A program made the translations under genes and the position numbers. Below, piece by piece: positions 32,700-53,000 of a DNA stretch of 64,000 nt. The stretch lies in NCBI GenBank assembly GCA_025716815.1, contig JAIXMN010000015.1:248001-312000 (forward strand), written 5' to 3'. A model generated the notes under the pieces. The model ran no database searches. It had not been told where the DNA came from and worked only from the letters and a program-made list of their open reading frames with translations. Positions within the stretch are counted from its first letter, which is position 1; every line of letters starts with the position of its first letter. The stretch is from Dichotomocladium elegans. Lineage: Eukaryota > Mucoromycota > Mucoromycetes > Mucorales > Lichtheimiaceae.

Positions 32700-34273
32700 T
32701 CACACGGCTGGTGTCGTAGTGGTGGTATTGGCTGTCCGGCTCGTTGCCGCCGCAGACGATGCGATTACGCTTGTGCTGCTGTTGTCATGGCCAGCCCAGC
32801 ATCCAGGGCAATTATGAAGGACTTCATGTATAAAGATATCGCAGTCAGGACAGAACTCCTGTTCACACTTGGGGCATTTGAAGACCCCTGTCCCAGGTGC
32901 ACCTGCTTCTTGCTTGTCAAACACTGTCAAGCAAGAAAAGCAGTGTGTGTTTTTTAAACCGCTATATAATTCCGATTCCTCGTCAGTGGCATGATAATAA
33001 CCCATTGAGGTTTCCACTTCTGCATACCTTATCCGGACTTCGTCAAAATTCTCCACTGGAAACAAGTGATGATAGGACCGAGCAAGATGCGGAGACGACA
33101 CAAGAGTCAAACCACAAATGTCGCAATCGCTCGGCAGCTCGCATACCTTGGATCCGCACCGAGGACATATATATCCTGCCGTAGTAAGTTTTGAATGGCT
33201 AGACGATACATTAATTGTCTTCTTTTTTTTTTTCTCGAGTCCAAGTTAGGCTCTTACCATACGCAGAATGTTGGCTGGTTTTCCGTTTGCCGCCTTGGAA
33301 AGCCCATCATGACCAAGTTGGATCTGCTCTTGTTTGGTCCTGTGGCTGGTGGTGGAACAGCCTCAAACATCAGGTCCTTGTAATGTGCCTCGTTCAGCAC
33401 CACACCATAAGTACCTGATGATCTTTATCCTCTTAGCATAATCCTTGTCTAATATTTACCATCCTCGTCTCTTCCTATCTTACCCTTCGTGGCCTTACTG
33501 AGCTCACGACAGATCTGTATCTCAGCAGCCAATCCCACAATATTAACCCTCACGTTTTCGCGCTGCAGCAAGGCGACGGTGTCGTGAATATTGGAAGGAT
33601 CGCACGTAGTCAGCGCACCAAAGACCAGTAGGATTTCCTTGGACCCATGACTCGGGACACCGACCATGCTCGACCGTGCCAGTTGGAGCGCGTTTTGCAG
33701 CGAAGGCTCGCCGCTCGTCTCGATGTTTTTCCGTGTTTCCAGCGCCCGAATGTGGTCGTTTGGGTTTCCACTCAACTCAGTGAGTTTTTCGGCGATCCCA
33801 TCACGGGTGATAACGATCCCAAGCTGGGAAATAGGGTTTTGGTCAAAGTACTCGATCACAAACTGTTTTGCGTAGGAAATAGAGAGTTCTACACGACTCG
33901 GTCGAAGGTCTTTTTCATTCATCGCTTCGGAAAGGTCAATGATTATAAAAAGATGCCGGATAATACCACGCTGAATTACAGCCGTATCTTTTAAGAGCCT
34001 ATCTCAAATGAACCATACGCATGAAAACACAAATGAGAAACGGGGCAAGTGCGCAGAATCAACATGCGGCGTAATTGATTAATACCTTCGCCTTTTTCGT
34101 TGATGCTGCAGTTGAGCGACGACGCTGCTCAAGCGACCTTCTTCGTCTTCTTGAAGAACATCCCAACTACGTTTGTACTCCTCTTCCCAGGCGTAGCCGG
34201 CCTTGCCAGTATCCTCATCCTGTGTGCCGTCCACATCAATATATTCCTCGTCCATATCTCGCCGAGATGCCAT
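32700..34273 (-). CDS. SSL1: TFIIH core subunit SSL1/p44 (GTF2H2)
   Basis: Four exons in transcript order: 34273-34086, 33998-33460, 33414-33258 and 33198-32700, predicted 460 aa. The N-terminus is acidic (MDEEYIDVDGTQDEDTG) and passes into the KRRR block, then the von Willebrand A-like domain: AVIQRGIIRHLFIIIDLSEA, YFDQNPISQLGIVITRDG, EKLTELSGNPNDHI and HGSKEILLVFGALTTCDP. The C-terminus carries the C4 zinc finger (GYICPRCGSKVCELPSDCDI), ARSYHHLFPVENFDE and a RING-like cysteine set (HCFSCLTVFDKQ, FKCPKCEQEFCPDCDIFIHE). SSL1 acts in TFIIH for RNA polymerase II initiation and nucleotide excision repair, activating the XPD helicase. The Ser/Thr/Ala-rich tail is variable in the family. Confidence 0.96.
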
Positions 34274-35447
34274 AACGTAATGCGTGTATATGAGGAAACT
34301 GCAATTTAAAAAAATGAGAAAGTGGGAGAAAGCGCGCTGTGCTGTCAGGTTCCGATCGATCCCCAAGGAATGCTCTGGTCTGTTCAATCGAGAGCCCTAT
34401 GTCGCTTGCCCTCAAAGAATTCGTGGCGTTATCCAATGAAAAATCCGTGTCGCTCTTCCAAAATGGCTGCCCGCCCTTTTTCGCTTTAGAACTTAATAGG
34501 CAAAAAATATATGAACCCATAGGCTAGTCAGATATGCATCCACCGGTGATAATCAACACGGGAGAAAGCAGGAATGAAGGAACGGACAAAGACAGAAGCA
34601 TAGGGACAAGCGACGCCAAAAGTTGGTAGCCGGCAAATCCAGATCAACCCACCTTGGGTGCAAGATGCGAAAGGTCTTTCTGAAAACACTTGCACAACCC
34701 TTCTTCTTCCTATCGATAACTAAGGGAGTCGGATAAGGTGGATACGTACGTATCTCGGTATGAATCCAATATCACCTCCATTTTTGCGATGCATACAGAG
34801 TAATGACTGGTATTTCATTAGTGTGCTTGGCGTTACATAAAACAAATGGATTTAAAATGATGGGACGCCACAGTGATGAAAGAACCACCGTATATACAGG
34901 TTGATTCAAATAACGGCTTTTATATTAGACTATCAAAGCCTGATGAAGAGTATATGCATCATGTTTTATCTTAGAGTAAGCAAACCAAATATGCGGTCAA
35001 GTTGTTTTTGGCAATGTATAATTTGTAGTACACTAAATCACCATAGCATCCTCTTGATATAAGGTTGCAGTGAGGCTCCGATTTGTTCAGGACTTTCCCC
35101 TTGCTTCTTGGGTTGCCTGTGCTTGTCCCTGTTGTCGCTTCGGCGTTGCTTCCACGCCAGATGCTCTCATTTTTTTACTATCCTCTTCCTTGTCCCGCGC
35201 TCACCCGATGTAATTTGCTGATGCCGCGCCTTTTGACCGGCTTCGTGCCCGCCACTGTGCCCTTGCCGTTGCTTCTGGTGTTGCCTGTCCTTGTTCCTGC
35301 CGCTGCACCGGACGCATCACCAATCTCCGCCGTGGCTATTGTCATGCGCACACTGGATACGCCTAGTGTGAGCCGGGTTGGTAAGTCAAAGCATAAAGCG
35401 GACGAACGGAATCTCTTTTTCGTATGACACGTCAATTTCATACTTTA
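34274..35447. other. intergenic, with a GC-richer imperfect repeat next to the Fanzor element
   Basis: SSL1 promoter region followed by an AT-rich spacer. At ~35095-35340 a more GC-rich patch contains two imperfect copies of a ~45-base unit (core cttcttgggttgcctgtg / cttctggtgttgcctgtc), ~170 bases apart. It ends near the proposed 3' end of the Fanzor element. No gene is supported. Confidence 0.4.
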
Positions 35448-35460
35448 TTTTCAAAAATAA

Positions 35461-35556
35461 ATGTCGTAAACAAGATAAATAATGTCGTGCAAAATACAAC
35501 AAAAATGTCGCATAGAATTATATAAATTTGTCGTATCAATAGGTAAAAAGATTTCG
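35461..35556 (-). repeat. ~22-bp periodic AT-rich repeats at the 3' end of the Fanzor element
   Basis: Five degenerate copies of a core like atgtcgta occur at about 35461, 35482, 35505, 35528 and 35549, spaced 21-23 bases. Degenerate versions (atttcgta, atgtcaca) recur at the related end around 55857-55910. The spacing is close to two DNA helical turns, which could mean protein-binding sites. Confidence 0.6.
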
Positions 35557-35599
35557 CATCCATGGATGAAACCCTGTTAGTCAGCAGAAAACATTACGC

Positions 35600-35720
35600 C
35601 TTCTCCAATCCCGTTGACTTACAACACCGTCCTTCCAAAGGAAGGGGGCTTGCCCCGAAGGGCTGTGGTTATCCTGGGTGCGTCAGCGATAACTGACGCG
35701 GAAAATTATTGGTTGGGGTT
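35600..35720 (-). ncRNA. candidate Fanzor guide (omega) RNA scaffold
   Basis: Directly after the Fanzor stop codon there are three successive perfect hairpins. The first is GCGTCAG/CTGACGC at 35680-35686 and 35693-35699 with loop CGATAA. The second is GGGGC/GCCCC at 35645-35649 and 35652-35656. The third is CCTTCC/GGAAGG at 35630-35635 and 35639-35644. In TnpB and Fanzor systems the guide RNA overlaps or follows the 3' end of the nuclease gene, with the guide beyond the element end. The first hairpin is preserved with a different stem at 56003-56020. Transcription from this strand is inferred, and the limits are approximate. Confidence 0.6.
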
Positions 35721-37914
35721 ACGGTCGTCTCGACCCGCCAGAGCGTGCACCTCGTGGCCTTCCTGGCCTTGCCCGTCGCGGTCTCACGCTGCGCTGCTCT
35801 GGTTCAGGTGAGTGTGGTCTTCCACCAGCTGCGGACGCTTGTGCAGGATTTCTTCTCTGGAACCTTGCTGGGATGATACCGTCTTCCCGAAGACCCCGGA
35901 GGATATGATGCATGTTGAGAGCCGCCGCCAGATCCCGGTTCCATAACCTTGGTTGAAAAACACCCTCTGCCATACCTGCTGTACAGTTTTGATTTGTGCA
36001 TCTCTTAAAACATCAAAATATTAAAATCTTTTTGGAAATATAACACAACATGCCCGTCCTTCATACCGTAGCAGGCCATGGCAGATCATGAGCGGATTGT
36101 CGGGTCGTCGATATGGGCGTGGATTAGGTAACCATTTTAAAGGTAGCAAGGTTTTCATTGTCATATATAGGGCAGCACTTGCTTGTCTTGTACTCGTCGA
36201 TCAAATAAATATTGCAATTGTTCTTCTTCAACAGCCGCCGGAAGCCGACACCACGGATAGGCTCGTGATATCTTGTATGCGGCGCAGACCAATTTCCCAT
36301 CACGAAAACGGACCTACTGCCAAACTTCGCGTTCAAAGAGTCGAGAAGCTTTTCATCTGCTTGCTGCTTCTTGTAAAACGCTGACAGGCGAAGTTTTCGA
36401 AAAAGAAATTGTGGGTTCGGGTGGTTCGTAGTGGTTGTCGCGTAGAAAGACTTGAGAACTACAGAGACCCTGTTCTTGGCGGCGAGGTATCCGTCGTAGT
36501 TGCGCACGGAAAGCGTATGACTTTGAAATTGGGATAGATTCTGCTCAGCCAACGCGACCTCGGGTCGCTCTAACTTGAGTCGTTCTCGGAGTCTGCGGTA
36601 CCGTTTGGTCTTGCGTGTATGATCTTGAAGCTGCTTTGTATATCGGAAGGTCTGGTGGTTGTCTGGTGAAGAGTTCTCATGAACGCAATACAACAGGTCC
36701 CTTATGCCAGGATCAATGGTGACCCATTGTCCTCTATAGTCTTCGTTCCGGACTATCTGCGGGGTGACGTACTCGATATCTTCGCTCTGGACGCCAAATC
36801 TCTGTCCGAAACCCGATTGAAGGCCATTTGTCTTCTTGAACACAGTAACACCGACGCCATCAGTGTGAATAGTCCCACGGAATTGGAGCAGCTCGGATTC
36901 TTGGGGTTTGAAAGCTCTTGATTTCAGGTTTACAACACGTCTCCAGTACTCCATATTGCTTGTGTGGGATTCCATTTTGCAGCCCAGGATATGGTAGCAA
37001 AGGATTTTCGTATCAATCTCCATGTAGCATGGTGACCACGAGCGACGAAGTGGAAAACAGTTGAATCTGCGTATTCCGCTCTGTTGACAAACACGTGCAA
37101 GCTGGAAGAAGGCGTTGAAATGCTTAACAGGATTGGCCTTGGCGTCGTAATAGATACTCTGATGTTGGAATTGGTGGCTTCGGGGGTAAGCGTTTAAAAC
37201 AGGCTGTAGGATATCGTATGCTTCCCGAAGAAATCCAGGTTCGGCATTAATGTCTTCCCTCAAAACACCTCGACGGGCAATTGCTAGCTTGAATCCTGTG
37301 GCATGCCGGGTGATGGTTTCATAAAGGTCCTGGCGTACTTGATCGGGGCTTAGGCCCTGTGCGATTAACTCTCGCTTGCAGTCGGCTTTTCGCTGACGAA
37401 GATTCAGGATGACATTGATGACACGCCGAAGGTGTTGGCCGAACCGCATGTGGACATTATTCACGTAAGCAGTATAAATCTTGGTGCCTTCATAAGAAGA
37501 ACATTGCTGGGAATAAGGGAACGCAGGCCTGTCGTATCCGGATATCCGAAGGTACTCATCCTTGTGGCGATTAATTAGTTCTCGGATGCGGGCAGTTTCG
37601 CCTTGGGTGCGGCGTTCGGCTTTGTTAACCATGGAGAGCCAAACTTCTGAAAAGAACTTCTCCGTGATGTTTTCGTGGATGTTAAAATTTGGATCGCGCG
37701 CTGCCTCGTTGATGAAAATATATTCGGCGAACGCGTACGCCTGCGTTGTGGTGTTGTGGACAAGGTCGACCAACTGATACAGACGTTCACGGTACTGCTG
37801 TCGCCAGCCGATGCCCCGTATGGACGATTTCACCCCAATTATACGGCCAGTGCGGTCAATGCTGTGGCCAGTGCGCATGCCTTCGGGAATGACGGGGCGG
37901 TGGGGTTGGGCCAT
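35719..37914 (-). pseudogene. Fanzor (TnpB-like RNA-guided RuvC nuclease), probably recently disrupted
   Basis: The main frame runs from the ATG at 37914 for 596 codons to 36124. The remaining C-terminal zinc-ribbon segment continues in the next frame (NPRPYRRPDNPLM...HGLLR), across an intron at 36066-36002, to a final exon 36001-35719. Family features: RuvC-I WVTIDPGIRDLL with Asp-401; FVMGNWSAPH at ~540 in place of the usual RuvC-II acid; LIDEYKTSKCC with Glu-574; the second zinc knuckle CTNQNC; and RuvC-III RLWNRDLAAALNM with its Asp codon at 35934-35932. Fanzors and their nearest TnpB relatives are known to have a rearranged RuvC-II glutamate, so Glu-574 is a candidate. Defects: one extra base near 36122 gives a stop, and the second Cys of the first zinc knuckle is Tyr (CPIY). 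The Arg/Pro-rich tail has no family counterpart that I know. Total length would be ~710 aa. Confidence 0.85.
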
Positions 37915-38156
37915 TTGGTGGGTGAAGACCTAGGGTATATTATTTCTTAGTATCGCAGAGACGAGTATGAAAGCGGCCGTATTACCTTCAAACGTAAATG
38001 TGGTGCTGTGTTATTTTCTGTAGGCTGTATGGGCTCTAGTTTTGTATGTGGATAATGGAAAGGGACAGTTTGCTTGAGCATCACTATTTGTAGTGTCAGC
38101 AATGATCCATCTCCACAGTGTTTTTCTTTTTCCCACTGGGTTCCTTAATGTGGTTT

Positions 38157-38332
38157 TACAGTGGCCGCTCGTTACAGTGATATTCATTATAATGATAATT
38201 CATTATAGGGATACACTTTATGAAGAACAAAATTGCCAGGTAGGGTTTATTCCAATTTATTATAGTGATAATTCATTATAGTGTTGAGATTTCCTGGAAC
38301 CGAGGGTATCACTATAACGGGCGGCCACTGTA
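38157..38332. mobile_element. 176-bp MITE with 26-bp terminal inverted repeats and TA ends
   Basis: Left TIR 38157-38182 and right TIR 38307-38332 are inverted copies (outer part TACAGTGGCCGC, inner part GTGATA) differing at two positions. TA dinucleotides at both ends fit a TA target duplication, as in Tc1/mariner/pogo elements. The interior repeats gataattcattata twice (near 38194 and 38267) and has no coding frame, so this is a non-autonomous element. A decayed relative lies at 50134-50224. Confidence 0.85.
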
Positions 38333-38764
38333 TCGACGTGAGGGCGATCTGAAATCAACAATGAAATCCCAAACAATTCCAACAAGTAATTCCAAGAGAC
38401 CATCTCAAGAATAATCCGATACATATCCGGCACTTGGGTAGTGTAGGAAGATTGTACTTCTTTTCGTACTCTCTCAGTCTCTTACAACACAACAAAACAC
38501 GAAACTGCTGTCATCCTTATCCATACGTTCAGGAAGTGTAGGTACATAATGAATAATTTCTCTGAATATTACAATGAAAACATTTAAATTTCATAGTGGT
38601 CTCCTGAAAGCCATTACTTCATTTCCATTTGATAACCAGCTTCGGAGTTACAATCCCCAGACTGAATGGTTCATTGACAAAAAGACAAGCACACCCCGAT
38701 AGTTCTTTCTCTTCTCGATATAGGATTCTTTTGAGTACGGCTATTTTTAGTGACAATTGCATTC
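38333..38764. other. intergenic spacer between the MITE and the Tc1-like fragment
   Basis: AT-rich sequence with no open frame or repeat that I can support. Confidence 0.4.
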
Positions 38765-39400
38765 TAGAACAATAAATGCTCTTCATTGAGAATACACGAT
38801 CGGCCCTCTGCTTCTACGTTTCTTAAAATGCTGTCAGGGTCCTTTTCTTACTGTAATGCCCATCGCTATGCTGAACGAACATGGATTGCTAGCTGTTTTG
38901 CTGCAGCTGATGCACTCATTACCTCCTCAAACACCATTTTGAAAAATCCGGCTTTATCTTGGTCAGTGTACGCTGTGTACTGCGCTTGATCCCCGCTTCT
39001 TTTATCCGAATGTCTGGATCCTTTCGCTTGTGAATCTTCGTGGCAGTAAGCTTAGGGTTATCTTTGCACGATATGCTACGCAGATATTCAGTGTAAAAAC
39101 AAACGGATTGAAGTGAGTACATTTCCTCATCAATGACATAGTCCATAGATTCAGGTCAGCCACGCTCATCAACGACATGATCTTGGCCGTCGTTGTAAAA
39201 TAATAGATTGCTCATTTCAGAATGTAAAAGTTTATAAAGAGAAAGAGTCATAAGGATGAGATGGATATGCGACATCTTTCCGTGTATGTATCTGACATTT
39301 GCTTTGTCATCACGCGTAAAGATTTCTGGCAAAAATGCGATTTGTATTTTTGCGATCCTGCGACTTCAGAACTGGCAGGGTGCGACTTTGATTTTGAAAA
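38765..39400 (-). mobile_element. Tc1/IS630-like transposon fragment, 5' part
   Basis: About 630 bases align throughout with 56960-57580. They share, for example, tcattgagaatac, the RIKEAGIKR coding segment, gatatgctacgcagatattcagtg, tcatcaacgacatgatcttg, and a final segment of the type gcgattt...cgacttc.gaactgg. On the minus strand it encodes the N-terminal side of the family transposase (VIDEEMYSLQS...DPDIRIKEAGIKRST), with stops and frameshifts. The catalytic domain is absent. Confidence 0.75.
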
Positions 39401-40517
39401 CGCTCATTCAAGCTCGGGCCATAACTCCGCTACTTGCCATGTGACAAGTCGGAGGATGAGCGGAAACTGAATGGAAGAGTCATGCAGCGAAGCAAGTGGA
39501 GTGATGCAGTGTAGGGTCGCGACAGACAAACAGCCTGCCGGGATCTATTCAGCGAGCAGATGAGTCATGACTCTGCAAACATTAGCATCGATAGTCAAAG
39601 ACGCCGCGCTTGGGCTCCCGGAATTCGTATTGTAGCTATCAAATCGATAAAGAAACATCGTTCTTTATTGGCCGTGCCTCGCTTGGAGCATATCGGTTCG
39701 TATTCTTTATCTTGTCGCCACAAAATAATCAATTTCACAATTTGGGTGGTGGTTAGTCCGAAACTGCTACCAGTACTTCTGTTGCAGCAGGAACACGCGC
39801 AGCTGGGAAGCTTGCTTTGCTGCCCAAATCTAGTCAAACAAACAACATAGAATGAAAAGTTATTTGCAGCTTACATCATGTCAGGTCTGTCCAACATAGT
39901 CCCCTGCCCATATAACAATAACGCTTATACATCGTCTCAAGTGATCACGTACTACGATTGTTTCTTGTCAGTAAGAGGAACAATATGATTTGCCATCATA
40001 CATATTCCGTGCAATGATTCTCACTGCATCGTCAATGTAGCTAATATCAGAAAATTAAGAGCCGCATTCCTTTTGCAGTTTGTAAAATAACTTCACGCAT
40101 ACATACATACATACATACATGTGCGCTCCCTGTTCTCTCTCTTTTACATTTAGTGCGGCTAACGTTTATGTAGACGTGCAGGATCAAGCCATCCGTCAAT
40201 ACTATACGCGCTCTTGAAGAGTGATGCTGCACCAACAGCGCAATCAAGCATCGAAATGCGGCATAGCATCCAAACACAGAGGTGAGAATTCCTTGCATAA
40301 AGCAAGTAAACATATAACAACTCAGATCGTTCACAGTCCATTGATAAACTATTTTTTTTTAAAAAAAAAATAAGCAAGCCAATCTCAAAATAATGCAATA
40401 TGCAAAGGTAGAACTTTTTGAATAGCAATCATCTACCTCAAGGTTGATAAATAGTTTTTTGACCTCTGTAGCTCTCCTTCGTTTTCCCCTCTTTTTCTCT
40501 TTGTCCGATCAACCGTC
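39401..40517. other. intergenic with promoter of the LEA_2 gene
   Basis: No gene supported. It contains the CATA microsatellite, a T9/A10 inverted homopolymer block near 40350-40370, and a CT-rich leader (about 40470-40505) just before the ATG at 40518. Confidence 0.4.
40098..40120. repeat. (CATA)n microsatellite
   Basis: Perfect run of about six CATA units in intergenic DNA upstream of the LEA_2-like gene. Confidence 0.9.
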
Positions 40518-41754: not shown

Positions 41755-42425
41755 ATACACAGTTTACCAAATCAAAATCAGTCCTTGTCCGTTCAGCACA
41801 GCGATGGGCATTACAGTACGAAAAGGACCCTGACAGCATTTTTAAGGAACGTAGAGGCAGAGGTCATTCACGTATGCCCAACGGAGAGCATAAGCGTGCT
41901 ATTTCAGAATGGGGTTGGCGAGGGATCCCGCAGTTGCCCTAGAGCAAATTGCTGCAGAGCTTTTGAGGTATTAAAATACCGAAAACGACGCTCCATCGAT
42001 GTATGACGAGCGAATGCAACCTGTCATTAAAGAGAGCTCGGTTTCAACCTGTAGACAAGAAAGACCCGAGGGCATCTGGATTAACTGCTGCACCGTTCGG
42101 ACCTCTGTAGTAATTACAGTGCCGAAAACAGGAGCGGAAACAACTGCAGTCCTGGGAGCAATTTCGGCATCAGGCACCACCAAGTGCAGCCTGAGGCTTC
42201 TACAACCACCAGCAAAGCAGAGATGAAGGGCGGCCCAACCTGACGTCGCAAGCAGAGGAACTGGAACTGGACTTTATCTCAGCTTCCTCAAGGCTATCAT
42301 GGGCGAAATGGACAAGTTCGAGCATATGAAGGCTCATTATCTCGTAGTGGATGATGCATTTATTCGTAGGGCAGATGCTATCTCCAGATATATTGAAGCT
42401 TGAGGATATCAATGTGCCTATCTTC
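41755..42425 (+). mobile_element. Tc1/IS630-like transposase remnant
   Basis: Decayed coding sequence in several frames: N-terminal SAQRWALQYEKDPDSIFKER, then ITVPKTGAETTAVLGAISAS, KCSLRL, then MGEMDKFEHMKAHYLVVDDA, which contains the second catalytic Asp region of a DDE transposase, and finally AYLHIRLN. The same segments in the same order occur on the minus strand at 56290-57060. Stops, frameshifts and an internal deletion make it inactive. Confidence 0.8.
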
Positions 42426-43059
42426 ATATTCGTCTGAACACGCCCTATTGAATAGTATTGGACAGTTGTGAAGAGTAAAAACGCTATAGTTTCTTGGAAA
42501 TCAAGATGTTGATGGTCTGATTAAGTGAATCATCAAATAGCTTAAAGTTGAACGATTTTGAAGCACTCCCTTCCCTGTTAGGACTTTGTCAGAATGACCA
42601 ATCCTGTCTGACGCTCTCTTCCATGTCCTCATCGGGTATGATCATCACTATAATGCTAAAGTATTACTGTGGAAAATAAAGTATCTCCTGTCCCCTCACT
42701 GCTGCCAGATGGTTCTTAGACGATTTAAACACCCAGTTCTCGCGACCTTGGATTTCCAGGACCAGAAAGTAAAAGCTAGCACCCGACTTGTGCATGTAAT
42801 ATATGCACATACGCATTACCGCGAATCACAGGAAATTACGTGCTTTGTAGCTAAGACAGCCGAAAGTTGACGACCGAGCTATTAGAAGCGCATGTTTTCA
42901 AGAATGGAGGTGTGTTGTATGAAAAAAAATGTATACAAAAGAAAAGGGCTAGGTAATGAAAAAAGAAAGGGGATTGGGGCTGTAAAATGTGCAAAGCAAA
43001 GGGATATAAAGAGATTTGTGCGCGGATGTGTGTGTGGATGGTTGGATATTGCTATAACT
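42426..43059. other. intergenic, 3' side of UFD4
   Basis: Spacer between the transposase remnant and the 3' end of the HECT ligase gene. The last ~150 bases are likely its 3' UTR. No gene is seen. Confidence 0.4.
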
Positions 43060-52564: not shown

Positions 52565-53000
52565 GGGGGATCATCCACGTATTCCCAATGAGGAGCATAA
52601 GACCACTGATGAGAATCCATCCATTGGTTCAGAGCAACTTATGGAGGAAATGTTGAAGGGATACGAGGGTCTTAGAAGTATCCCACATGGCGCTCCATCG
52701 AACTAAGTATGAAATACAATGCAACTGGTCAGCATACAGCACTTGATTTCGACTCGTAGACCGTAAAAGTGATGCCGATATCCAAGAGCACGTTGAGTGT
52801 GTTTGTCGATGGGGCATGGCCGGGATTGACTTTGGATAGAAGAGAGAATTCTTAAATGACCCGGACTTCATATCAACATGAAACACAGCATAGCATGATC
52901 CAAAAAAAATAACGCTTGCAAATGCACGGTACTAAAGCTAAGAGCAAAGACAGCGACGGTCTTGGGTGGAATTCCAGCATTAGGCATCATTAAATAATCT
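52565..53000 (+). mobile_element. Tc1/IS630-like transposase remnant (inverted pair, right copy)
   Basis: Near-identical inverted partner of 49540-49965, starting GGATCATCCACGTATTCCCA and ending around ATTCCAGCATTAGGCATCAT. It encodes the central part of the transposase on the + strand with the same inherited stop as the other copy. It lacks the catalytic C-terminal part present in the 49340 copy. Confidence 0.78.

Follow-up and report, generated by a model that had tools for sequence, protein, structure and literature searches.

Among the described systems, the Spu-1/SpuFz1 elements of Spizellomyces punctatus are close to the one considered here. They are presented in PMC10432273 as multi-copy inverted-repeat elements that encode Fanzor1, with no transposase indicated there between the repeats, with an RNA region situated between the stop codon and the right repeat, and with shortened derivatives. 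What Fanzor does in nature is, according to the same paper, not known. The Mariner elements PUl-1, which has a transposase, and PUl-4, which has a Fanzor only (Bao and Jurka 2013, PMC3627910), show the same arrangement and a TA target. The Mucorales families ROr-4, PBl-3 and MCi-4 treated in that paper were assigned to MuDR, with 9-bp duplications. In the current analysis we have identified a Fanzor1-bearing element of Tc1/mariner DD34E type in a stretch of 64,000 nucleotides from Dichotomocladium elegans (contig JAIXMN010000015.1, positions 248,001 to 312,000), referred to below as the window. The window almost certainly holds a dead copy of this element. A Fanzor1 in a non-autonomous mariner-type element is a kind already known; the new points are a selection signature on the Fanzor gene across the copies of the family and an odd right junction.

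Of its transposase the element no longer has the catalytic part, and it retains the Fanzor1 gene together with a structured 3' region that extends to the right inverted repeat. The genome searched comprises 39.4 Mb in 122 contigs, and 30 loci were fetched by their match to exon 1 of the Fanzor gene. These loci have ends common to all and flanks that differ, and they delimit in the window a unit of 3.97 kb, recovered as BLAST hits at 39400-39165 and 39139-35440; the shared element in the aligned loci amounts to 3.94 kb (L002:44-3985). The element ends, TATACACCATTTTTCAAAATC on the left and TTTTTGAAAATAAAGTA on the right, form an imperfect inverted repeat. A first-pass annotation of this DNA had set a boundary at 35448, which is 7 nt off the 3' end of the repeated element at 35441; the true unit is larger, extending from there to about 39411, and is highly repeated. 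The transposon, its copy number and the transposase remnant had been missed. The features of the window copy are as follows.

35441 to 39411, minus strand: the whole repeated element, Tc1/mariner-derived, Fanzor-bearing and non-autonomous, delimited by BLAST of the 30 loci; its 5' end is at the high coordinate, about 39411
39382 to 39411, minus strand: left end, decayed, the terminal TATACACC of other copies being unreadable here
38776 to 39313, minus strand: remnant of the N-terminus of a Tc1/mariner transposase, residues 1-189 of 475, in several frames and without the catalytic part, found by tblastn with the transposase of locus L082
38157 to 38332, no strand assigned: nested short inverted-repeat element upstream of the Fanzor gene, with 26-nt arms TACAGTGGCCGC... 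(92%); a strict pattern search recovers its two ends in 16 of the 30 loci
36067 to 37914, minus strand: Fanzor1 exon 1, broken, 1848 nt, with one extra base near 36121-36133 and a stop at 36124-36126; identified by PDB match
36163 to 36174, minus strand: first zinc knuckle, CPIY in the window copy and CPVC in the 14 copies readable to 709 amino acids
36002 to 36066, minus strand: intron, 65 nt, GT...AG; 69 nt in the same 14 copies
35719 to 36001, minus strand: Fanzor1 exon 2, with the second zinc knuckle, NRD, an Arg/Gly-rich tail and a TAA stop
35441 to 35460, minus strand: right end and right terminal inverted repeat (TIR) TTATTTTTGAAAATAAAGTA, shared as a right end by several elements of sister families
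35439 to 35440, minus strand: right junction dinucleotide, TG in the window, where TA is expected for a Tc1/mariner duplication

The family consists of many near-identical copies, a good part of them with open Fanzor exons. The exons are open in 17 of the 30 fetched loci, summing to 709 codons, and the gene is broken or partial in 13. The introns of the 17 open loci are GT...AG in 15 cases and GC...AG in L020, and have a changed donor in L008. Exon-1 divergence averaged over these 17 loci is 0.9%, which points to a recent spread of the family. Genome matches to exon 1 number at least 79 rows (best 73 of 831 candidates scored), some of which are pieces of one locus and some sister families, so that the copy number is not exact. 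The 3' end has at least 41 matching rows, one of them a second piece of a copy, and the 5' end at least 47, with at least four second pieces (40 candidates scored in each case). Locus L047 is a deletion derivative of 1.2 kb, comparable to the shortened derivatives of the Spu-1 elements, and a sister Fanzor family, B, is 50-56% identical. An end resembling the TACAGTGGCCGC ends of the nested element is also seen at 50224-50187 of the window.

The Tc1/mariner origin is visible here as a transposase remnant, and in this respect the family differs from the Spu-1/SpuFz1 elements as described (PMC10432273). Locus L082 encodes an intact transposase of 475 codons (DDE_3, E=1.8e-30), whose catalytic D, D and E are residues 281, 383 and 418, hence DD34E. 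Matches to this protein extend no further than residue 204 in 27 of the 30 loci, the exceptions being L024 (to residue 229), L022 (to residue 287, on the opposite strand) and L025, which has no match. The second or third catalytic residue was not matched in any of the 30 loci, and a DDE transposase encoded by the element was not found, the window's family having the N-terminal remnant only. The element is therefore a non-autonomous derivative. Its first 600 nt or so are common to L067 (91%), L068 (90%) and L082 (76-87%), all with DDE_3 transposase sequence, and the last 28 nt of L002 are identical to those of the sister element L069. The latter, of family B, carries fragments of a transposase, spread over more than one frame, upstream of its Fanzor and on the same strand. 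A genome search with the L082 transposase gave at least four rows spanning at least residues 27-475 without a stop (best 90 of 3415 candidates), two of them near-identical to L082 (C44, C57) and two at 59% (C31). The DDE-type ends set the element apart from the IS200/IS605 elements with TnpB and omegaRNA, which have HUH ends; the present element is also eukaryotic and spliced. The two are alike in that the nuclease gene is followed by a guide scaffold, here a putative one, up to the right end, and in the proposed homing to empty sites.

If the Fanzor were useless to the element, the ratio of replacement to silent changes would be expected to be equal in changes private to one copy and in changes shared between copies. 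The comparison covered the 3'-terminal 1140 nt of exon 1 in 30 loci chosen by similarity of their 3' DNA and not ranked by protein, of which 26 were usable. Private changes comprise 90 replacement and 41 silent ones, a replacement fraction of 0.687 with a neutral expectation of 0.714; shared changes comprise 8 and 24 respectively (Fisher p=1.2e-5). When the changes are placed on a tree, 5 replacement and 21 silent ones fall on internal branches against 103 and 63 on terminal branches (p=6.8e-5), and a tree built only from the region after exon 1 gives 5/22 against 104/71 (p=1.1e-4). The contrast is retained without CpG sites (p=3.8e-4) and with any single locus left out (p<=1.3e-4). The transposase remnant, analysed in 21 loci chosen by protein match, shows no such shift (36/12 private, 6/2 shared), and its shared changes differ from those of the Fanzor (6/2 against 8/24, p=0.014). 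These patterns of change suggest that the Fanzor gene was probably under selection while the lineages spread, with each copy decaying in a nearly neutral manner afterwards, so that a Fanzor function would have been selected during the spread. Among the open-licence PMC papers listed, we recognised none that reports such a selection test on Fanzor.

Several observations weigh against selection. In the 30 loci chosen by protein match the contrast is less marked (30/38 shared, 157/92 private, p=0.0055; on the tree, with 29 used, 13/29 against 201/140, p=8e-4), a set that overlaps in insertions with the DNA-chosen one. It is absent in the 22 protein-chosen loci left after dropping eight older-looking ones (9/12 against 51/38, p=0.33), and also in L002-L018 alone (6/11 against 32/32, p=0.41). 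The private changes of the latter do not look neutral, with a replacement fraction of 0.50 where 0.71 is expected; ranking by protein would have this effect. The control from the transposase remnant rests on 8 shared changes, and the shared variants could partly be older than the loss of the transposase. The open exons are in themselves no proof of activity, since L016 is without the DEYKTS string and L015 reads IDPGRRN. The weak and absent contrasts would fit a Fanzor that is a passenger, in elements moved by a transposase encoded elsewhere, the few shared replacements having been inherited from the complete element or arising from the choice of copies. We regard this as rather unlikely, because the strongest contrast comes from the set chosen by 3' DNA and not ranked by protein, because the absence of the second and third catalytic residues from all matches in the 30 loci makes it most likely that the segregating variants postdate the transposase loss, and because the remnant, within the limit just given, is without a shift. 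The open exons in 17 loci could also be read as those of a domesticated Fanzor, the copies being duplicates kept for the host. That is hardly conceivable for loci which have two common ends and different flanks, which are broken or partial in 13 of 30 cases, and whose private changes are near neutral in the DNA-chosen set.

Selection acting on the Fanzor during the spread of the elements, the reading that we prefer, is concerned with the family and not with the window copy, the gene of which is inactive. Its identity as a Fanzor, claimed in the first-pass annotation, is firm. The window frame 36124-37914 on the minus strand, of 596 codons counted from the ATG, matches the Fanzor1 of Parasitella parasitica (PDB 9cf0, E=1.2e-106) and that of Spizellomyces punctatus (PDB 8gkh, E=1e-37), and exon 1 of L002 matches the former with E=1.9e-118. 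A search for homologues gave 118 at E<=0.001 with a top identity of 48%, the organisms named among the rows shown being fungi. PF26935 is annotated on most of the 118, and our own profile scans of this DNA did not report it. Profile scans of the three window pieces gave no Fanzor or TnpB family: Pfam reported nothing, and NCBIfam reported two weak unrelated matches. On L002, PF07282 was obtained with E=0.022, short of the cut-off of the profile. The motifs IDPG, GNWSAP, DEYKTSK and NRDLAAALN are all present in the window as had been noted, and the intron at 36066-36002 is confirmed.

Exon 1 measures 1847 nt in 17 of 18 other copies and 1850 nt in L022. In the window copy it is one base longer than in the 17, which leads to the stop at codon 597 and to the involvement of three frames, where two frames joined across the intron had been supposed. 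The segment IDPGRRD reads IDPGIRD here. The motif defining Fanzor1, D-X(125,275)-[TS][TS]-XX-C4 zinc finger-X(5,50)-RD (PMC3627910), is found in L002 as IDPG, KTSKCCPVC, CTNQNC and NRD; the zinc finger of the window copy, with CPIY, is broken and lies outside the reading frame. Compared with the majority sequence, the window copy has 15 replacement and 24 silent changes in 1782 nt. With the frameshift and the lost zinc ligand, a working protein cannot be made from it. The designation of this copy as a Fanzor nuclease was thus mistaken, and it is plausible for the sister copies. The best solved relative of both the window and L002 Fanzor is PpFz1 (PDB 9cf0-9cf3, PMC11423790). The matched chain of PpFz1 has about 90 residues between positions 1001 and 1095 without a counterpart here, which are probably the FRI cyclophilin-binding insert described in PMC11423790. 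A viral source was considered and rejected, IMG/VR having given two pattern matches and no relative.

The 278 nt from the stop codon to the right end at 35441 contain a series of structured and AT-rich segments, which are given below with the adjoining flank.

35680 to 35699, minus strand: hairpin 1, 7 bp, GCGTCAG/CTGACGC, proposed stem-loop 1 (SL1) of the omegaRNA, from alignment and fold
35652 to 35663, minus strand: hairpin 2, GCCC-TTCG-GGGC, of whose four pairs two are lost in sister family B
35631 to 35645, minus strand: hairpin 3, CCTTCC-TTT-GGAAGG, missing from all five family B rows
35461 to 35630, minus strand: AT-rich 3' tail containing short repeats of the CGACAT type; several copies have partial deletions here (alignment A1)
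35424 to 35438, minus strand: flank, the place of a putative guide of about 15 nt, assigned by position

The three hairpins that had been noticed past the stop codon are real, the first of them beginning 19 nt beyond it. Their interpretation as lying where a guide RNA would be expected is supported in so far as the region is RNA-like, with compensatory changes in hairpin 1, and fails for the guide junction itself: the element 3' end, where a guide would begin, is 190 nt away from the third hairpin. The guide of SpuFz1 is given as 14-15 nt (PMC10432273). Alignment A1 contains 42 copies, 39 of them distinct (34 family A rows and 5 family B rows). In it the pairing of hairpin 1 is kept in 99.6% of 273 cells, against 16-59% when the partner is slid. 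The stem is GCGTCAG/CTGACGC in family A and GTGTCGG/CCGGCAC in family B; two of the seven pairs are altered on both sides, one of them to U-G. Seven pairs are also described for SL1 in all three solved Fanzor1 ribonucleoproteins (RNPs), in which the scaffolds beyond SL1 vary and the total is 75-150 nt (Xu et al. 2024, PMC11423790). Hairpin 1 fits SL1 in that it likewise has 7 bp. The TIR and the target duplication have been reported as part of Fanzor1 RNAs, with no pseudoknot indicated in that account (PMC10711439). In the window, the hairpin block of 86 nt has a better fold than shuffled sequences (z=-2.5, 5 of 200 as good), and the same holds for L002 (z=-2.9). For the 286-nt 3' stretch of the window, including 17 nt of flank, z is -3.2 with 0 of 200 shuffles as good, and for the whole 3' stretch of L002 it is -2.2. 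The loop of hairpin 1 (UUAUC) could, as judged by eye, pair with a nearby GAUAA. On comparison and folding, hairpin 1 is quite likely to belong to a functional RNA. Hairpins 2 and 3 were rejected as family-wide features, the former losing two of four pairs and the latter being missing in family B. The unbroken RNA region of the window copy could in principle at most donate a guide RNA to the protein of a sister copy.

The assignment of an RNA function to this block also has points against it. The compensatory changes represent one split only, and 137 of 500 shuffles also give two such pairs; their support for hairpin 1 is good but not overwhelming. The hairpin block of L069 from family B folds no better than shuffles (z=-0.3, 72 of 200), and constraint on the block within family A is not significant (1 shared and 10 private changes against 39 and 111 upstream, p=0.29). 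The proposed RNA, of about 260 nt plus guide, is longer than the published range of 75-150 nt, the omegaRNA of PpFz1 being 75 nt (PMC11423790) and the non-coding RNA of SpuFz1 88-90 nt (PMC10432273). The hairpins may accordingly be a 3'-end structure of the mRNA or a foldback of the DNA, with the true omegaRNA consisting of about 75 nt from the AT-rich right end, as in PpFz1. The identity of the last 28 nt in L002 and L069, the loss of hairpin 3 and alteration of hairpin 2 in family B, and a right end of L069 (81 nt) which folds somewhat better than shuffles (z=-1.5, 18 of 200) are in line with such a short RNA. For L002, in contrast, the 78 nt at the right end, of which 64 belong to the element, fold no better than shuffles (z=+0.6, 147 of 200), and hairpin 1 is kept by compensatory changes at exactly the 7 bp of SL1. 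The 28 identical nucleotides are the right TIR too, which transposase binding alone could conserve. We therefore consider the short RNA rather improbable, and an omegaRNA scaffold beginning at hairpin 1 is retained in what follows.

A Tc1/mariner element is expected to be flanked by TA at each end. The dinucleotide at 40 distinct right junctions, 36 from family A and 4 from relatives, is TA in 25, TG in 6, TT in 3, CA in 2, CT in 2, TC in 1 and GT in 1. Five further right junctions (L056, L075, L076, L079, L081) have TA, giving 30 of 45. The left junction is TA in 24 of 24 copies, and with L047 (TA) and L020 (CA) in 25 of 26; the same 26 copies have TA on the right side in 18, an asymmetry with p=0.024. 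A search with 23 joined flank pairs (40 candidates scored) found a related site without the element for L008 only (C35:678140-678284). It reads GGAATTA...52 nt...CATACCC, which is compatible with a TA duplication but differs by 52 nt. The left flanks before the TA have A/T at -2 in 23 of 24 copies and at -1 in 21 of 24, a preference too weak to name a target-adjacent motif (TAM). The right flanks of L009 and L024 look alike by eye (AAAG.CCCATTT.CAGA...GAGAGT.GAATT).

The explanation that best accounts for the data as a whole, and which is in our judgement probable, is that of an element without a transposase of its own, in which the Fanzor function was selected during the spread. A cut-and-copy mechanism, with a chance somewhat short of even, is tentatively proposed for it. 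The element would be mobilised by a transposase from elsewhere in the genome, and its omegaRNA scaffold, starting at the 7-bp SL1, would be supplied by the 3' end of the Fanzor transcript, with the host DNA beyond the right end as guide. The Fanzor RNP would then cut the site vacated by excision, or the homologue that lacks the element, and repair after the cut would copy the element back in. Neighbouring copies were apparently unable to make up fully for a broken gene, which implies some cis preference. TnpB is reported to process its own mRNA into guide RNA (PMC10278001), and a coupling of that sort would, by analogy, give such a preference: selection could act on the element's own gene because messenger and guide are coupled in the one proposed transcript. 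A stronger statement, that Fanzor cleavage is a cis-acting need for the spread of a DDE-type transposon lacking its own transposase, with Fanzor-damaged copies leaving few or no daughters, is speculative and in our view unlikely. Under it, the frequent loss of TA at the right junction only (15 of 45; TG, TT, CT and others) would be an escape from self-cutting, because with the TA duplicated, the filled site would again present a TAM next to the match of the guide. A large and young family that has lost its transposase, and whose Fanzor is apparently under selection, separates the two functions. It allows one to ask, in a natural genetic setting, whether the spread of a transposon is promoted by the eukaryotic RNA-guided nuclease it carries, and it is a source of candidate nucleases with a new putative 3' RNA for biochemistry.

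Searches of the whole window with Rfam and for tRNAs gave no match. Of two host proteins searched for relatives, an F-box-like one had no homologue, and a piece of an ABC1 kinase was 80% identical to Phascolomyces articulosus, the top match bearing an organism name, in keeping with a Mucorales-like genome. The window also contains, at 57493-56321 on the minus strand, a near full-length and broken relative of Tc1-like transposases (residues 1-431, in pieces), the 5' region of which resembles the left part of the Fanzor element. More fragments of the same transposase superfamily are situated at 41781-42595 (plus), 49948-49512 (minus), 52578-52994 (plus) and 53570-53412 (minus). Elsewhere in the genome, L071 represents a third Fanzor family (51% identical); about 0.9 kb from its end, an intact transposase gene is situated on the opposite strand (C57:1663210-1664634). 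In the degenerate element L067, the same two ends enclose pieces of a transposase in one orientation and, in the opposite one, pieces of a different Fanzor. Beyond the right end of the window copy, the frame 33449-34003 on the minus strand resembles a TFIIH Ssl1/p44 VWA segment.

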